From: Hyphomicrobiales bacterium
GTDB lineage: Bacteria > Pseudomonadota > Alphaproteobacteria > Rhizobiales > OSC116
Direction of reading: 5' to 3'
NCBI GenBank assembly: GCA_013214705.1
Contig: JABSRZ010000004.1
Coordinates: forward strand, 434,001 to 498,000
DNA length: 64,000 nucleotides
Shown here one piece after another: positions 5,852-52,020 of this stretch. The notes beneath the pieces were generated by a model. The model searched no databases. It was not told the origin of the DNA and worked only from the letters and a program-made list of their open reading frames with translations. Each line of letters starts with the position of its first letter. Position 1 is the stretch's first letter. The translations under genes and the position numbers were made by a program.

Positions 5852-5871
5852 CATTGTGAACTAAAACAGCC

Positions 5872-6420
5872 TCTGAGTTTCCGTCTGCCCGCAAGCACCC
5901 CTGTGTTTCGACGAGTGCGCCCAGAAGCCGTCAGGCAAACTATGTGGCCAACGCGCGGAGGCTAGCTGACACTTGCGGAGCAAGGGGCTGCGCACGCAAG
6001 TGCCAACAGTGAGGCGAAGCCGAACGTATAAATGGGAGTACCCGTAAAATCGGCAGGAGTGCTAACTTTCTATGTCTTAGCAGCATCAACAGCTGGCTCA
6101 ATCTCCGAAACTCCAGCGCAAAATCTCAACTTCACTGCTTTTCAGCAGCCTCAGGGGCGGCGCTCCTGCCAACACTCTGGAAGTCTGCATTTTTACGCCC
6201 ACCTTTCGGCGGGCTAGTCGTACCTGCGGGCGCACGCCTCCGCGTGCTTGCTACGCCCTAACGGGCGGCCTCAGTCGGCAAGTTCGCCAACGAGTTGGCT
6301 CGCCCCTTTTACCCAAATTCATTCTGAGTTTCTGTCTGCCCCTCGCATCCACACAACGTGCCATCCGCTTTCGCACTCACCGAATCACTGGGGTGCTTGG
6401 AGGTAGACGCAAATGCCGAG
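5872..6420. repeat. Structured repeat locus A (modules 1, 1', 2, 3)
   Basis: Fills the gap between two convergent genes. It contains a full plus-oriented module 1 (5872-6117), a truncated inverted module 1 (about 6118-6244), an inverted module 2 (about 6245-6312) and a self-contained mini-element (6323-6420) whose two ends are inverted copies of the module 1 terminus (TCTGAGTTTCTGTCTGCC type). Internal hairpins include GCC-GTCA-GGC, CTTGC-GGA-GCAAG, GGC-GAA-GCC and GCACGC-GGAG-GCGTGC. Open frames through it are not conserved between copies, so I do not call genes here. Confidence 0.8.
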
Positions 6421-6431
6421 TTTTCTGCTAT

Positions 6432-21540: not shown

Positions 21541-21910
21541 TGGAGTTTCCGACGCAGAGCCAGCAGTTGAAGCTGTTAAGACACTGGCAGTTAGCGCTCC
21601 TGCCGGTGCACTGGAAGTCTGCATTTATACGTTCTTTCGGCTTCGCCTCTTTCACTGTTATCACTTGCGTGCGAACCCACACACTAGCGTGTGCGTCTTC
21701 TAGCCTCCGCGCGTTGGCCTCAGAGTTTGCCGTACGGCTTCTGGGCGCACTCGCCGAATCGCAGGGGTTCTTGCGGGTAGACAGAAACTCAGCATAGGTT
21801 TGCCGAATATCATGGGAAAAGGGGCGAGCCAATTTATTGGCGAACTTGCCGACTGAGGCCGCCGTTAGGCGTAGCAAGCAAACGGAGTTTGCGCACGCAG
21901 TGTTAAGCAA
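21539..21910. repeat. Structured repeat locus B (inverted module 1 plus module 2)
   Basis: Contains a full minus-oriented module 1 (21539-21793) whose inner end, AACTCCAGC, abuts the flavin reductase remnant, and a plus-oriented module 2 (about 21819-21910). Hairpins here are CACAC-GCTA-GTGTG, GGC-GAA-GCC, GCC-GTAC-GGC and, in module 2, CAAAC-GGA-GTTTG. It lies between genes that run in the same direction, unlike loci A, C and F. It ends about 10 bp from the intact flavin reductase stop. Confidence 0.8.
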
Positions 21911-21919
21911 AAAACTTGA

Positions 21920-25799: not shown

Positions 25800-25806
25800 A
25801 ACCACA

Positions 25807-26269
25807 CTCAGAATTTCTGTCTACCTCCAAGAATCCCAGTGATTCGATGAGTGCGACCAGAAGCTGCACGGCAAACTATGTGGCCAACGCGCGGAGGCTA
25901 GAGAGCGGAGCGAACGCACGCAAGTGTCAACAGTGAGCGCAGCGAACGTATAAATGCAAACTTCCAGAGCACTATCAGGAGTGCCAACTGGCTATGTCTT
26001 TACAACCTCAAACACAGATCCACCGGCCGCAACTCCAGCACAAAATTTCAACTTCACAGCTTTTCAGCAAACTCAGGGTGGCGCTCCTGCCTACGCTCTG
26101 GAAGTCTACATTTTTTCGCCCACCTTTCGGCGGGCTAGTGGCACTTGCGTGCGCTCGGCACGGCCTCGCTGGCCTCCGCGCGTTAGCTGGCAGCGGCTTC
26201 GAACGGCGGCATTCGCACTCACTGAATGGCACGTTGTGTGGATGCGAGGGGCAGACACAAACTCAGAAT
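25807..26269. repeat. Structured repeat locus C (inverted module 1 pair plus module 3)
   Basis: Fills the gap between convergent marR and a TPP-enzyme gene. It has a plus-oriented module 1 (25807-26039), an inverted truncated module 1 (about 26040-26188) and a module 3 end (about 26189-26269). The extremities are inverted copies: CTCAGAATTTCTGTCTACC on the left, and the complement of GATTCTGAGTTTGTGTCTGC on the right. The right end reaches the last base of the TPP-enzyme stop codon. Hairpins include GGC-CGT-GCC and CCCGCC-GAAA-GGTGGG. Confidence 0.8.
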
Positions 26270-27928
26270 CTACCCTTCTAACTGCTCCAACTGCACCATT
26301 GGCCCCAGTGCATTAGGATCTATGCGCATTTCGATGATGGCGGGTTTTTTGGCGGCGCGGGCTTGAGCGAACGCCTCTCTGAACTCGGCATCGGTTTCGA
26401 CCACTGCGCCAAACGCCCCATAGGCCTCAGCCAGCGCCGCAAAGTTTGGGTTAAAAATGTTTGTCCCGCTTGGGCGTTTTGGAAACTTTTTTTGTTGGTG
26501 CAAGCGAATGGTGCCATACATGCCGTTGTTTGAAATCAAAACGATCAGGTTGGCATTATGCTCACAGGCCACACCAAATTCTTGCATAGTCATCTGAAAA
26601 CAGCCATCACCGGCCATGCAAATAACCTCTTGGTTGGGGCGCTCGATTTTTGCGGCCACTGCGGCTGGCAAGCCAAAGCCCATAGAGCCGCTGGTGGGGG
26701 CTAGCTGGGTTCGGTAATTGCGATAGCGGTAATAACGGTGCAGCCATGCCGCATAATTTCCGGCTCCATTGGTTATAATGGCGTCATCCGCCAGCACATC
26801 GTTAAGATGCGCGATGACGTTTTCCATTTTTAATTTGCCGGGTGTTGCCACTGGTTTTTGCCAAGTTTCATAATCTTGTCGTGCCTCTAGCGTCCACGCG
26901 CTGGCGGTTACTGGCGGTGTATCTGCTAGCCGCTGCGCGATCTGCTCGATGAACAAGCCAGCATCGGCGGCGACGGCGTAAGTTGGGTGAAATACCCGCC
27001 CAAGCTCGTTGGCATCGCCATGTATATGCACCAGTTTTTGGCTCGGCACTGGCGATTGCACCAAACTATAGCCGCTGGTGGCTATCTCGCCCAAACGCGC
27101 ACCAATGCAGAAAATATAATCGGCATCACGCACCCGTTGCGCCAGTTTTGGGTTGATGCCAAGGCCAATATCGCCAATATAATTGGGGTGGCGGTTATCG
27201 ATAAAATCTTGACAACGGAATGATGCCCCAACCGGCAAATCGAGCGTTTCTGCCACCTGCGCCATAGCTTTAGCCGCCGACTGAGACCAATTGCCACCGC
27301 CCAAAATAACCAATGGCCGTTTGGCAGCTTGCATATGCGCCAGCACCGCATCGACATCTGATTCGGCCGCTTTGCCCGATGGCAGCACCGCAAGCGGGGT
27401 AGCAACGGCTTCGCACACGGCTGATAACATATCTTCGGGCAGTGCCAAAACCACCGGCCCCGGGCGGCCAGACTGCGCGGTTTGGAACGCGCGCGCCACA
27501 TATTCTGGTATTCTATCAACCCGGTCAATTTCGGCCACCCATTTGGCCAAAGGGCTGAACATGGCGCGGTAATCCACCTCTTGAAACGCCTCACGATCCC
27601 GCTGGTCGCTGGCGATTTGGCCAACAAATAAGATCATCGGGGTTGAATCTTGAAACGCCACATGCACGCCAGCAGAGGCGTTGGTGGCGCCGGGCGCGCG
27701 GGTGACAAAGGCCACACCTGGCTTGCCAGTTAGCTTGCCATGCGCCACCGCCATCATGGCCGCGCCGCCTTCATGCCGGGCGACAATATTCTCAATCCCG
27801 GCATCATACAGGCCATCTAACGCGGCCAAAAAGCTCTCGCCCGGAATGCTAAAAACCCGGTTCACACCTTGCATTTCAAGCGCTTCTATCAGCACTTTGC
27901 CGCCATGTTTAATTTGCTTCATATTCAT
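26270..27928 (-). CDS. Thiamine-pyrophosphate enzyme, acetolactate synthase-like
   Basis: 552 residues with the three domains of the acetohydroxyacid synthase/POX family: an N-terminal Pyr domain with the catalytic Glu53 (RHEGGAAMMA), a central domain, and a C-terminal PP domain with the TPP motif AGDGCFQMTMQE followed by ISNN. It is not a canonical biosynthetic IlvB: no small-subunit gene is adjacent, and it stands alone. Relatives annotated as thiamine pyrophosphate-binding protein act on various 2-keto acids. The exact reaction is not determined. Confidence 0.88.
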   Translation of the reverse strand: MNMKQIKHGGKVLIEALEMQGVNRVFSIPGESFLAALDGLYDAGIENIVARHEGGAAMMAVAHGKLTGKPGVAFVTRAPGATNASAGVHVAFQDSTPMILFVGQIASDQRDREAFQEVDYRAMFSPLAKWVAEIDRVDRIPEYVARAFQTAQSGRPGPVVLALPEDMLSAVCEAVATPLAVLPSGKAAESDVDAVLAHMQAAKRPLVILGGGNWSQSAAKAMAQVAETLDLPVGASFRCQDFIDNRHPNYIGDIGLGINPKLAQRVRDADYIFCIGARLGEIATSGYSLVQSPVPSQKLVHIHGDANELGRVFHPTYAVAADAGLFIEQIAQRLADTPPVTASAWTLEARQDYETWQKPVATPGKLKMENVIAHLNDVLADDAIITNGAGNYAAWLHRYYRYRNYRTQLAPTSGSMGFGLPAAVAAKIERPNQEVICMAGDGCFQMTMQEFGVACEHNANLIVLISNNGMYGTIRLHQQKKFPKRPSGTNIFNPNFAALAEAYGAFGAVVETDAEFREAFAQARAAKKPAIIEMRIDPNALGPMVQLEQLEG

Positions 27929-28432: not shown

Positions 28433-28524
28433 AAAAACCCCCTAAAAATTAAATCACCTTAGGTGGTAGAATATGAATAAGTCAACAATTTGGCCAACGC
28501 CAAACACCCAACACATATCGCACC

Positions 28525-28720
28525 TTTCCGCATACCCCCAAGAATCCCTGCGATTCGGCGAGTGCGCCCAGAAGCCACAAGGCAAACCCAGCGGCCAACG
28601 CGCGGAGGCTAGCCGACACTTGCAAAGCAAGTGGCTGCGCACGCAAGTGCCAACAGTGAAGGAGGCGAAGCCGAGAGAACGTATAAATGCAGACTTCCAG
28701 AGCATTTGCAGGAGCGCTAC
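28525..28720 (+). repeat. Structured repeat locus D (single module 1, plus orientation)
   Basis: One plus-oriented module 1, from CCCCCAAGAATCCC to GCAGGAGCGCTA. The outer TCTGAG terminus is missing. Hairpins: GCC-ACAA-GGC, CTTGC-AAA-GCAAG and GGC-GAA-GCC. It lies just downstream of the TIGR04141 gene and faces, in inverted orientation, locus E on the other side of that gene. Confidence 0.8.
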
Positions 28721-28763
28721 CTATAAACACCATAAATAATTCAGATTTTTGACATATAAACCA

Positions 28764-30494
28764 CTACGCTGCAGCTTTTACCCGCTTTGTGAAATTTGTC
28801 TGAGTAACGGGGATCATACAAATCGTGACTGATTTATATTTTCGATCATTCCTTAACAACTCATACGTCAACTTTAGCTCGTATTTTGCCATTAACGGTA
28901 AGCCCATTTTATCAGGTTTACCTTTACTTTTATTGTAAAGAATCCAAAGTTTTAGATTGTAATCGCGCCCATTTACCTCAGAACGATCCTCTTTAATATA
29001 ATTTAAAAAACCAATTTTATTTGGATGCTTTGATTCTAAAATGTGTTCGCGTATTTCTTCTAAGAAGACATCATCATTTAAAAAAAACTCGCTATAATAC
29101 CGAGCCTGTGAAAACAAATGGTTTAATGAACTCGACCCACCATGCCTCTTTACATGAATAATATTCATTTCTTGCTGATGTTGATTATATTCCAGTATGT
29201 CACAAAACTCATTATTTTTATTCCCAAGGCTAATTTTCAGTTTTGCCCCGTCAAACTTAATTGCGTTAGCATTTAGAGCACAATACCGCTTATTAAATAT
29301 TGCTTCTCTATTTTGCTCCCATTTCTGGTCATAAATATATATATTTTTATACTGATCTGAAATAGTTTCTTCTACTAATATATTTTCAATAAAGTCGTTA
29401 ATTTTAGCGGCAAAATCATCATCTACCTTTTTCCAAAAACCATTTGAAAGTATGAAATAATCCCCACCTAATTGGACTTCAGCAACTACGCAATTATACA
29501 ATTTCCAAAATTTATAACCTAAAACTTTTTCTTCCACCGAAGAATATGCGTATATTTTTCTGTTCTTTAAACCTGAAATTACTAATTTATCAATATTTAA
29601 AATTTCCTTTAAATGCTCAATATCAATATGTCCGTATAAAATATTCTCTTTTGTCTGGTGATTACTATAGGTAAAACCAAATTCATCATCAGCTATAAAT
29701 TCCGGTATTGCTAAATGAATTTTGTCAAACCGCTGCGCCCGTATAGCGTCCACCAATATCTCGTCTAACTCGCCCATTTTTTCTTTGGAAACGTCTTTTA
29801 AATTTGGATAATTGGGAAATAAATCTTTATAAATTTCGGATGCATATCCAGCGATAAATTTTTTACCATATGCTATTAGTTTGTCCCATGACAACTTTTC
29901 CTCACCAATAATTTTAATAGTTAAGTTATTTTTTCCTTGTAATGAGACCTTATTATCGCCCGATAAATTTGCTGAGACATACTGCAATATTTCAGCTTCA
30001 TTCATTCTAAGTTCATAGGCACCAGAAGGTTTACTAATCTGCCTGTCAATATGTTGGGTATTTAACGCATGGGTTCTGCTTTTAGTTTGTCGGACATTCT
30101 CATTGCCGCACATATTCATTGCTGTAATAATACCAAAATCTTGATAAAAATTGTCCATTTCCAACCAACTTTTGCTAGAAGTGCCAAAACATGCAGCCAA
30201 GACTGTATTTTCAATTTGCAACAATAACAAACCGCTGGGTCTGGTATTTTTTGAAGTAAAATTAATTTTATCGCTATCCAGTTTTTGGTTTATAAAATCC
30301 AACCAAACAGGAACATCGTCTTGAGTTACTGTTTTTTGCTGACAGAAAAATCTTAAGTTCACTTCATCAATATCAAATTCTCTGGACTGAAAGTATGTAC
30401 CTTGTTCTGGCAGTTTACCATCGTTAATTACGTCTTCAAAACTTAGATTTTCTTTTGCTAAGTAAAAAGATATATTGCTTAATTCTCTAGCCAC
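28764..30494 (-). CDS. TIGR04141/DUF6119 sporadically distributed protein
   Basis: A 576-residue protein resembling the TIGR04141 (DUF6119) family, large proteins found patchily on bacterial chromosomes and often in defence or mobile regions; biochemical role not established to my knowledge. The family hallmark is visible near residue 435-460: EFCDILEY, then MNIIHVKRHGGSSSLNHLFSQ. The D(x)n-HVK spacing resembles a PD-(D/E)xK nuclease core, but this is inference. It starts at GTG with AAAGGTGG in front. It is visibly more AT-rich than its neighbours, bracketed by inverted repeat arms and close to a tRNA gene, so transfer is likely. Confidence 0.8.
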   Translation of the reverse strand: MARELSNISFYLAKENLSFEDVINDGKLPEQGTYFQSREFDIDEVNLRFFCQQKTVTQDDVPVWLDFINQKLDSDKINFTSKNTRPSGLLLLQIENTVLAACFGTSSKSWLEMDNFYQDFGIITAMNMCGNENVRQTKSRTHALNTQHIDRQISKPSGAYELRMNEAEILQYVSANLSGDNKVSLQGKNNLTIKIIGEEKLSWDKLIAYGKKFIAGYASEIYKDLFPNYPNLKDVSKEKMGELDEILVDAIRAQRFDKIHLAIPEFIADDEFGFTYSNHQTKENILYGHIDIEHLKEILNIDKLVISGLKNRKIYAYSSVEEKVLGYKFWKLYNCVVAEVQLGGDYFILSNGFWKKVDDDFAAKINDFIENILVEETISDQYKNIYIYDQKWEQNREAIFNKRYCALNANAIKFDGAKLKISLGNKNNEFCDILEYNQHQQEMNIIHVKRHGGSSSLNHLFSQARYYSEFFLNDDVFLEEIREHILESKHPNKIGFLNYIKEDRSEVNGRDYNLKLWILYNKSKGKPDKMGLPLMAKYELKLTYELLRNDRKYKSVTICMIPVTQTNFTKRVKAAA

Positions 30495-30680
30495 ATTAAC
30501 CCACCTTTACTTCAAAGTAATAGTTTCAATAATCCATAATTAAATAAATAATAGTATAGATCAAATAAAATGCAATATTATATTTTAATAAAATAAACAA
30601 ACTGGAATGAAGACTCCATCTTATTTTGCAACAGAGTTGGGTAAAAACCAATTCTCTCCAGCAAACACCCACCCACCAGC

Positions 30681-31035
30681 CTGCCCACACTCTGGAAGTC
30701 CCATTCATACGTTCCCACGGCCTACGGCCTCGTCACTGTTAGCACTTGCGTGCGCTCCACCCACTAACGTGGGCCTCGCTAGCCTCCGCGCGTTAGCCAC
30801 AGAGTTTGCCTTACGTCTTCTGGGCGCACTCATCGAATCACTGGGATTCTTGCGGGCAAACAAAAATTCTGAGATTGTTTCTATGAATTCCCAAGTGACC
30901 GCAGCGGCTTCGAACGGCCGCACTCGCACTCGCCGAAACACCGGGATTCATGGGGATATACGAAAAGGCACAATATGTGTTGGCCGCGCCCTGAATATCA
31001 CGTTGTGTGGATATGGAGCGGTGTGCAAACAATAA
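30681..31035 (-). repeat. Structured repeat locus E (inverted module 1 plus module 3 variant)
   Basis: A minus-oriented module 1 (30681-30873) ending in the TTCTGAG terminus, followed by a diverged module 3 (about 30895-31030) with the CACGTTGTGTGGAT block. Hairpins: CCCAC-GTTA-GTGGG and GGCC-GTA-GGCC. It stops about 15 bp from the CCA end of tRNA-Met. With locus D it forms an inverted pair around the TIGR04141 gene. The preceding stretch 30495-30680 is AT-rich with no gene seen beyond the promoter region. Confidence 0.8.
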
Positions 31036-31048
31036 TAAAAAAGGGAAA

Positions 31049-31125
31049 TGGTGACGGAAGAGGGATTTGAACCCCCGACACGTGGATTATGATTCCACTG
31101 CTCTAACCAACTGAGCTACTCCGCC
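31049..31125 (-). tRNA. tRNA-Met (CAT), elongator type
   Basis: A complete 77-nt cloverleaf with encoded CCA. Acceptor stem GGCGGAG with TTCCGTC; D arm GCTCAGTTGGTTAGAGC; anticodon stem GTGGA/TCCAC with loop ATCATAA giving anticodon CAT; T arm GGGGG/CCCTC. The absence of initiator features (A1-U72-like mismatch, GGG/CCC in the anticodon stem) and the AATCATAATC loop context fit elongator tRNA-Met rather than tRNA-fMet or the lysidine-type tRNA-Ile. Its 3' end faces the TIGR04141 island. Confidence 0.93.
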
Positions 31126-45948: not shown

Positions 45949-45956
45949 GACCTACA

Positions 45957-46650
45957 TTCTGAATTTCCATCTACCCCCAAGAATCCCTGTGATTCGTCGA
46001 GTGCGCCCATAAGCCGCAAGGCAAACTATGTGGCCAACGCGCGGAGGCTAGCTGACACTTGCGGAGCAAGGGGCTGCGCACGCAAGTGCCAACAGTGAAA
46101 GAGGCGCAGCCGAAAGAACGTATAAATGGGAGTACCCGTAAAGTCGGCAGGAGCGCTAAATGTCTATGTCTTAGCAAAATCAACCGCAGGTTCAATCGCT
46201 AAAACTCCAGCGCAAACTTTCAACAGCACAGCTTTTGGATAATTTCGGGGTGGCACTACTGCCCATACACTGGAAGTTTGCATTTTTACGCCCACCTATC
46301 GGCGGGCTAGTTGCACTTGCGTGCGAAGCCACACACTCGCGTGTGCTTCTTCTAGCCTCCGCGCGTTGCCCACATAGTTTGCCTTACGGCTTCTGGGCGC
46401 ACTCGTCGGATCACTGGGATATTTGGTGGCAGACAAAAACTCAACACAAAATGCCGAATATAATGAAAAATAGGGCGAGCCAACTTGTTGGCGAACTTGC
46501 CGACTGAGGCCGCCGTTAGGCGTAGCAAGAGAGCGGAGCGAGCGCACGCAGTGTTAAGCGCAAAGCGCATAGCAAGCAAACGGAGTTTGTGCACGCAGTG
46601 CAAGCAAAAATGTGCGTAATCAGCTCGCAAAGCGAGCAGATTACGCAAGG
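45957..46650. repeat. Structured repeat locus F (full inverted pair plus module 2)
   Basis: The largest locus, between convergent flhF and fliJ. Plus-oriented module 1 (45957-46211) is followed by a complete inverted module 1 (about 46212-46442), a plus-oriented module 2 (about 46473-46560), a partial second copy of its end (46561-46610) and a terminal hairpin. The two arms are inverted copies over about 200 nt but carry different hairpin stems: CTTGC-GGA-GCAAG in one arm, CACAC-GCGA-GTGTG in the other. Confidence 0.85.
46613..46647. terminator. Long hairpin at the edge of locus F
   Basis: TGCGTAATC, one mismatch, GCTCGC, AAA loop, GCGAGC, the paired mismatch and GATTACGCA. This gives 15 base pairs interrupted only by an A-A mismatch. 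There is no T-run, so a Rho-independent role is uncertain; it lies 50 bp beyond the minus-strand fliJ stop and may protect or end that transcript. Confidence 0.4.
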
Positions 46651-50629: not shown

Positions 50630-52020
50630 TACACTTTACCTCGAACTATACGCGAAACTCTCGCTCCAATTTTATTTAGTGGCAATATTTCACACACCAC
50701 CCCAGCATCCACCGCCGCACCTGGCATACCCCACACCACACTTGACGCCTCATCTTGCACAAGAACCGTGCCGCCCTGTTCAATTATTTGTCCCGCACCC
50801 GGTGTGCCATCATTGCCCATTCCGGTTAAAATAACCGCCAATAAGGTCTTCCTATAAATGCCTGCCGCAGTCATAAATAATGGGTCGACAGAAGGTTTGC
50901 AAAAATTTATTTGCGGGCCATCACTTAACTTAATTTTAACTGACAAACCGGTGCTGGTTAAGCTCATATGTTTGCCGCCCGGGGCCACATAAATCACCCC
51001 TTTTTTGACCAATTCGCCATCGATAGCTTCCCGACAAACCCGATTGACCACTTTGCTAATATGTTGCGCCAATATTTTGGTAAAGCTAGCTGGCATATGT
51101 TGAGTAATAAATACCGGTATATGATCTATTGTTGAATCGATGGCTTTGGCAATCTCTAATAATGCCGGCGGCCCGCCGGTGCTGCTGCCAATGACCACGG
51201 CCTTGGGCAACGTTTTTGAAATGGCGTGAAAACTGCCTACCCCCTGCCCAGCTTTTGGTTTGGCGTGGCCAACCAAAGAAGGTGCTGTCTCGGCCAAATT
51301 TTTACGTAACGAACGAATGACTGGGGCTTTGCGAACGACCGGGGTTTTGCCTGTGTCTGGGGATTTGCTAGTGACTGGGGATTTGCTAGTGACTGGGGAT
51401 TTGCTAGTGAATGGGGCTTTGCGACTAGATGGCGCATCGGCACCAGAGCTTGCCTTTAAGCTGGTTCTAGCGTGAGCGCGAGAGCGTGATGCCGTTGCGC
51501 CTGCCATGGAAGGGCGCACCGCTCCAGAAGCTCTAAAACTAGAGCTGCCAGCACCGCCAGCTTGGCTTGGGTCGACCACACCGCCAAATACCCGAATTTT
51601 TTGCAACAATTCTTGTTTGAAATCGGTCGCGCCGGCTAAGCCACCAACGCCGGAAGGCTTGGCCACATAATCCACTGCGCCAAGTGACATTGCTTTAAGG
51701 CTAATTTCGGCGTTGCGCGTGGTTAAGGTCGAAGAAATGATTATTTTGGCTGAAGGGCATTTTTCTAGCAATAATGGCAAAGCTGTAATGCCATCCATTT
51801 CTGGCATTTCTATATCCAGCAATACCACATCAGGCTTATCTTCGGCAATGTTATCGACCGCAATTTTTCCGTCGCGATGTGTCGCGATGACTTCAATGTC
51901 AGCCAGCCCGGTCAGCCACTTACTAAACATTCCGCGGACAACAACACTGTCATCTACAATCATCACCCTAACTTTGTTGCCAAAGTTTCGGGTTTTCATA
52001 TATTTATCACTAACGCTCAT
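50629..52020 (-). CDS. cheB: Chemotaxis methylesterase CheB
   Basis: 463 residues: receiver (Asp69), a long linker (about 145-275) and the methylesterase domain with GSSTGGPPALLEI (catalytic Ser), TQHMPASF (His) and LTGMGNDG (Asp). The linker holds a 108-bp minisatellite of six 18-bp units that encode Ser/Thr-Lys-Pro-rich hexapeptides (TSKSPV type). I choose the ATG at 52020, with GGAG in front; the frame opens 15 bases earlier. Confidence 0.93.
   Translation of the reverse strand: MSVSDKYMKTRNFGNKVRVMIVDDSVVVRGMFSKWLTGLADIEVIATHRDGKIAVDNIAEDKPDVVLLDIEMPEMDGITALPLLLEKCPSAKIIISSTLTTRNAEISLKAMSLGAVDYVAKPSGVGGLAGATDFKQELLQKIRVFGGVVDPSQAGGAGSSSFRASGAVRPSMAGATASRSRAHARTSLKASSGADAPSSRKAPFTSKSPVTSKSPVTSKSPDTGKTPVVRKAPVIRSLRKNLAETAPSLVGHAKPKAGQGVGSFHAISKTLPKAVVIGSSTGGPPALLEIAKAIDSTIDHIPVFITQHMPASFTKILAQHISKVVNRVCREAIDGELVKKGVIYVAPGGKHMSLTSTGLSVKIKLSDGPQINFCKPSVDPLFMTAAGIYRKTLLAVILTGMGNDGTPGAGQIIEQGGTVLVQDEASSVVWGMPGAAVDAGVVCEILPLNKIGARVSRIVRGKV
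51319..51426. repeat. 18-bp minisatellite inside cheB, six units
   Basis: Units of 18 bp start at 51319, 51337, 51355, 51373, 51391 and 51409. Units 3-5 are nearly identical (GACTGGGGATTTGCTAGT type); the outer ones diverge, so the array grew in its centre. All units keep frame, giving hexapeptide repeats in the linker between receiver and esterase. Confidence 0.9.

Follow-up and report, generated by a model that had tools for sequence, protein, structure and literature searches.

A genus-restricted family of gene-end palindromes that look like docking cassettes for swappable, mostly conflict-type genes

Defence and toxin-antitoxin genes of bacteria gather in islands and integrons. In chromosomal integrons, each gene cassette pairs one accessory gene, which may be of the toxin-antitoxin or defence type, with structured hairpin DNA (attC). 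Palindromes of the REP/BIME type, which are associated with RAYT transposases, are lineage-restricted and lie at gene 3′ ends.

Two described systems come closest to the units reported here. Mobile insertion cassettes (MICs), such as MIC231 and mic-qnrD, carry varying passengers between two inverted repeats and have no internal transposase; they usually show a target duplication, and it is the transposase of IS231A, acting in trans, that mobilizes MIC231 (PMC3913671). The Tn3-derived TIMEs are short non-autonomous inverted-repeat elements with larger forms that carry unrelated genes – in the latter, TIME-COMP, a complete TIME lies at each end and 5-bp duplications are present (PMC4133298).

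We analyzed a 64,000-nucleotide stretch of Hyphomicrobiales DNA (the window), which sits in contig C34 of a 3.5-Mb genome (G000), and compared it with five sister genomes (G001 to G005). By analogy, the arm units identified here may work like the transposase-less insertion cassettes MIC and TIME-COMP. As in MICs, inverted repeats bracket a passenger and the units have no transposase of their own, but the repeats are ~200-bp mosaic strings of hairpins, no consistent target duplication accompanies them, and no matching IS was met in the loci examined. As with TIME-COMP, short inverted-repeat forms exist alongside larger gene-carrying ones; an arm-unit end, however, is half a palindrome, content changes inside one palindrome, and there is no consistent 5-bp duplication. 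Arm units also resemble integron cassettes in holding single accessory genes beside hairpin DNA, yet they are dispersed single sites with two inverted arms each, and the six genomes gave no integron-grade IntI match. They are, finally, lineage-restricted palindromes at gene 3′ ends like REP/BIME, but their arms are many times longer and hold cargo inside, and no Y1 transposase was found in G000, G001, G002, G003 or G005.

The DUF6119 unit beside tRNA-Met

The original prediction proposed that inverted arms bracket an AT-rich TIGR04141 gene near tRNA-Met, and our analysis bears this out. Inverted arms of ~200 bp flank the TIGR04141/DUF6119 gene at 28508-28722 and 30680-30983, pairing over 79 nt (28535-28613 with 30778-30856; 85% complementary), 59 nt (28508-28566 with 30925-30983; 83%), and 34 nt (28637-28670 with 30722-30755; 82%). 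The arm profile placed the left arm at 28525-28720 (E 1e-56) and the right arm at 30680-30873 (E 7.5e-50), and detected a further piece outside the latter at 30903-30971.

The cargo gene (28764-30494, minus strand; 1.7 kb, 576 aa, GTG start) has a GC content of 32.5%, compared to 44.9% for the window, and its product exceeds curated cut-offs over its full length for both DUF6119 (328 bits; cut-off 27) and TIGR04141 (252 bits; cut-off 35). Its 5′ region (30495-30660), also AT-rich, lies within the unit, and a promoter search there returned weak promoter-like matches only, no more than in shuffles. A conserved E-x-C-D ... H-x-K ... S..LxHLFxQ motif in the DUF6119 protein resembles a nuclease core, which suggests that DUF6119 may be a nuclease; an AlphaFold model of the protein as a single sequence had a mean pLDDT of 34, too low to inform on the fold. 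DUF6119 has a sporadic distribution – it is present in 10 of 385 genomes of the class, and none of the five sister genomes carries the TIGR04141/DUF6119 gene. DUF6119 genes occur on conjugative plasmids, the nearest plasmid relative being from Rhizobium etli (42% identical), and on an Actibacterium plasmid (L119, 2967-9094) a TIGR04141 gene has hsdS-like genes on one side and the R subunit gene of a type I restriction system on the other. A literature search on TIGR04141/DUF6119 returned nothing useful. The cargo gene looks like a putative phage-defence gene.

The right side of the unit had been taken for a single arm but is in fact doubled. The left arm (28508-28722, plus strand, read from its outer to its inner end) begins with a private outer tail (28508-28534) and ends in GCAGGAGCGCTAC, an L-type inner end that meets the cargo at ~28720. 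On the other side, an inner arm (30661-30875, minus strand; 30680-30873 by profile) adjoins the cargo through an R2-type inner end, GGGCAGGCTGGTGGGTGGGTGT; it is followed by a truncated outer arm (30890-30983, minus strand) and by a degenerate short piece of a further outer arm (30994-31016, minus strand), ATATCACGTTGTGTGGATATGG, which on a reading of its sequence is of the ‘b’ type. Positions 30957-30983 of the truncated arm match the private tail of the left arm. This 27-nt tail, CCAACACATATnGnnCCTTTnCGnATA, was found only at the two outer ends of the DUF6119 unit, with no occurrence in shuffles and none elsewhere among the loci compared by then. Since the outer tails match privately, the two outer ends of the unit are partners. 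The simplest reading would be that one unit lies nested inside another and that their left arms have merged.

The neighboring tRNA-Met gene (anticodon CAT; 31049-31125, minus strand) is intact, not duplicated, and oriented with its 3′ end toward the unit. The repeat had been placed about 15 bp from this end, but the last clear arm base (30983) is 66 bp from it (31049), and the degenerate scrap, which extends to ~31016, leaves 33 bp.

A palindromic repeat family with unrelated cargo

The arms belong to a larger family. The arm core, AACGCGCGGAGGCTAG, occurs in 89 copies in G000 at up to two mismatches, compared to one for a control pattern, and the arm profile identified 104 arm pieces in this genome, mostly in the order plus then minus. 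The consensus of arm-unit ends is RCANNYTCWGARTTTC and the arm-unit end sequence is RCANNYTCWGARTTTCYG. Small hairpins follow one another along each arm; their sequences vary among copies, but the ability to form hairpins is mostly kept. Arm pairs come in two forms in G000: 28 are compact, with a loop of 88-93 bp in nearly all, and about 10 inward-facing pairs enclose 0.6-2.9 kb of genes. The likening of the arms around the TIGR04141 gene to the facing pairs at three other loci (A, C, and F) was apt: those pairs are of the compact form, and their loops measure 89-92 bp. Compact palindromes related to the DUF6119 unit lie in the window at 5870-6421 (loop ~92 bp; on the right, an outer arm piece is nested), at 25806-26270 (loop 89 bp), and at 45955-46446 (loop 90 bp). 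The second of these ends exactly at the stop codon of a thiamine-pyrophosphate enzyme gene (26270-27928), and the third folds far better than shuffles (DNA folding z-score -12). A single related arm is present at 21590-21795 (minus strand).

The palindromic repeat family is genus-restricted: it is present in all five sister species, and searches found no copies in 35 other genomes of the order, in 384 of the class, or in plasmids. One exact match to a 16-nt core in a viral contig lies inside a gene and was attributed to chance. We also considered whether the compact element encodes a protein, as the ~90-bp loop has a long open reading frame in some copies; this was rejected because the three codon positions show about the same variation and the frame is disrupted by 1-nt indels.

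The arms often have another palindromic repeat, module 2 (CCGTTAGGCGTAGCAAG ... GCACGCAGTG), directly beside them. It follows the single arm (21801-21913) and comes directly after the compact palindrome at 45955-46446 (46452-46600), with a further copy at 6264-6313; two of the sister species, G001 and G005, have very many copies of it, arranged as inverted pairs ~217 bp apart. At 51318-51425 the window also has an 18-bp unit, TGACTGGGGATTTGCTAG, that is imperfectly repeated five times in tandem.

The genes enclosed by the arms of G000 include several of conflict type – a TIR gene of the ThsB type, a KAP ATPase that matches PDC-S49, a phage-defence candidate, and an HD-CE/HSP90-like ATPase (HD-CE + HATPase) – along with a Tle1-like hydrolase, a protein that weakly matches methyltransferases, a VOC/glyoxalase protein, and genes without a family assignment. 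Cargo in sister species includes a PIN toxin, a YefM antitoxin, a ParD-like antitoxin, and an AAA_33 kinase. Cargo genes are mutually unrelated and, judged by eye, often of conflict type, with some that are housekeeping-like (the VOC protein and methyltransferase). At 19 of 20 cargo-facing ends, the cargo starts in the final 20 of the arm's 207 positions or past them in the loop, and the cargo-facing arm ends are either L type, GGCAGGAGYGCTAAS, or R2 type, GGCnGGCTGGTGGTGTGT, with R2-type ends seen solely beside cargo or doubled arms. The family recurs, then, with unrelated cargo and with precise junctions at the inner arm ends.

Arms and interiors at orthologous sites

Orthologous sites were compared among sister species. 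At the leuD 3′ site, all four species compared carry arms, but around differing interiors. G000 has a 569-aa gene there, G005 and G001 each have a PIN toxin together with another gene (235 aa in the former, 229 aa in the latter), and G003 has antitoxin genes. From the flank into the left arm, G000 and G005 show continuous homology. At the ThsB site, G000 has a cargo unit, G005 a compact one, G001 a ~110-bp mini-palindrome, and G003 no arm. At C23:741620, cargo in G000 corresponds to a compact element in G001, and homology runs from the flank into the right arm. The presence of arms around differing interiors at three orthologous sites means that arms persist while the interior turns over. Whole elements can also be missing: the compact element at C42:149657 is missing from the orthologous place in G001 and G005, and that at C41:8813 from its counterpart in G003.

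At the leuD 3′ site (L082, L083) we also observed four to five arms in series with differing small genes between them, an array-like nesting.

The notion that a repeat pair carries cargo is supported by the ~10 gene-bearing pairs, the private matching tails of the DUF6119 unit, and the orthologous arms with differing interiors.

Routes of cargo change and rival explanations

We favor, as fairly probable, the explanation that the DUF6119 unit belongs to a family of cassettes, specific to the genus and lacking a transposase, in which the interior of the palindrome is the exchange site. A unit is a long imperfect palindrome with two arms, each built of exchangeable small hairpins, and sits directly 3′ of a gene stop codon. 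Its interior is either a fixed loop of ~90 bp or holds a gene (sometimes a few) of probable horizontal origin, in this case TIGR04141/DUF6119. New cargo may enter or be swapped inside an existing palindrome by recombination through the arms of another unit; alternatively, a whole unit may insert at the hairpin apex. Insertion or exchange inside a palindrome would also explain why arms are doubled, or nested, in places, as they are to the right of the DUF6119 cargo. Cassette movement is read here from comparison rather than from an observed excision, circle, or transfer, and the explanation would cover changes of content, the first spread of the arms lying outside it.

The composition of the arms bears on how cargo might change. 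Distant arm modules assort independently and neighboring ones are only partly linked. Judged by identity, joint copying of partner arms was not seen: partners are no more alike than unrelated arms (identity 0.728 within a unit versus 0.747 between units). That arms are mosaic and partners not more alike points to exchange between arms of different loci, which would make recombination through the arms or apex insertion the likeliest route of cargo change. Counting against the cassette explanation, an arm identity of ~75% is low for efficient homologous recombination. More tentatively, the palindromes could form an enzyme-less recombinational system, in which those at gene 3′ ends dock single conflict genes, mosaic arms serve as portable homology, and loci and strains swap interiors. 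If true, dispersed 3′-end palindromes docking single conflict genes would be another route of gene turnover – one that repeat annotation would miss, because the repeats look like junk – and candidate defence genes could be found by reading palindrome interiors.

An unlikely alternative is that the units are mobile insertion cassettes in the strict sense, that is, non-autonomous transposons whose long inverted repeats are recognized in trans by a transposase encoded elsewhere and whose cargo genes are passengers. Inward-facing inverted arms enclosing passengers without a transposase, the element-free sites in sister species, and the likeness of compact copies to MITEs all fit this account, as would a possible 12-bp duplication at one site (C42:149657), which hints at transposition but is not significant. 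Across 38 units, however, target-site duplications did not exceed chance (mean score 6.14, compared to 6.02 for mismatched flanks), and no Y1 (Y1_Tnp) transposase was found in G000, G001, G002, G003, or G005, with three in G004. No insertion sequence with matching ends was met in the loci examined. The lack of greater likeness between partner arms and the change of interiors within retained arms likewise speak against it. Classical transposition is thus not supported by target duplications or Y1 transposases, nor is integron recombination supported for the arm units: across the six genomes, matches to the integron integrase model TIGR02249 reached at most 78.6 bits against a cut-off of 265, the same as in control genomes. 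Because the duplication test failed and the Y1 and IntI searches found no mobilizing enzyme, we keep the arm units apart from MIC and TIME-COMP.

The siting of the units raises two further accounts. We observed that 79 of 90 element ends face a gene stop codon, at a median distance of 9 nt, and that none of ~51 element sites is placed between divergent genes, compared to 10 of 57 adjacent ORF pairs in the window. Together with the strong folding, this fits static 3′-end repeats – perhaps BIME-like terminators or mRNA stabilizers – with acquired genes settling in the same tolerant intergenic spaces, at times inside a palindrome. We nevertheless think such passive landing quite improbable, as cargo junctions cluster at the inner arm ends instead of falling anywhere in the arm, the two outer tails of the DUF6119 unit match privately, and interior turnover repeats at three orthologous sites. 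Far less plausible still is a genomic island formed by site-specific integration of the gene at the tRNA-Met 3′ end, which the original prediction had suggested as a landing site. The unit does lie 66 bp from that end, and gene order breaks just beyond the tRNA in those sister genomes that have sequence there. Yet the tRNA 3′ end does not recur in the 64 kb even with up to three mismatches, which leaves it without a direct repeat there. We also found no integrase by reading among the listed ORFs around the unit and no arms at the tRNA-Met site of G001, G003, or G004, while the same units occur at many other gene ends. With units at gene 3′ ends generally and the tRNA 3′ end not duplicated, the tRNA-Met neighborhood needs no tRNA-specific step. 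Of the composite unit originally proposed, then, the cargo between repeats stands and the tRNA landing does not.

The sister tRNA-Met neighborhoods provide no clean empty site for the DUF6119 unit, as all sequence beyond tRNA-Met differs. Just past the tRNA-Met 3′ end, at the gene-order break (L033 1-258, L030 5200-6338, L031 3412-4907), G003 and G004 carry acetyltransferase-like genes. G004 also has a transposase-like fragment past this end, and CGCTACAGT motifs are present there in G001 and G003.
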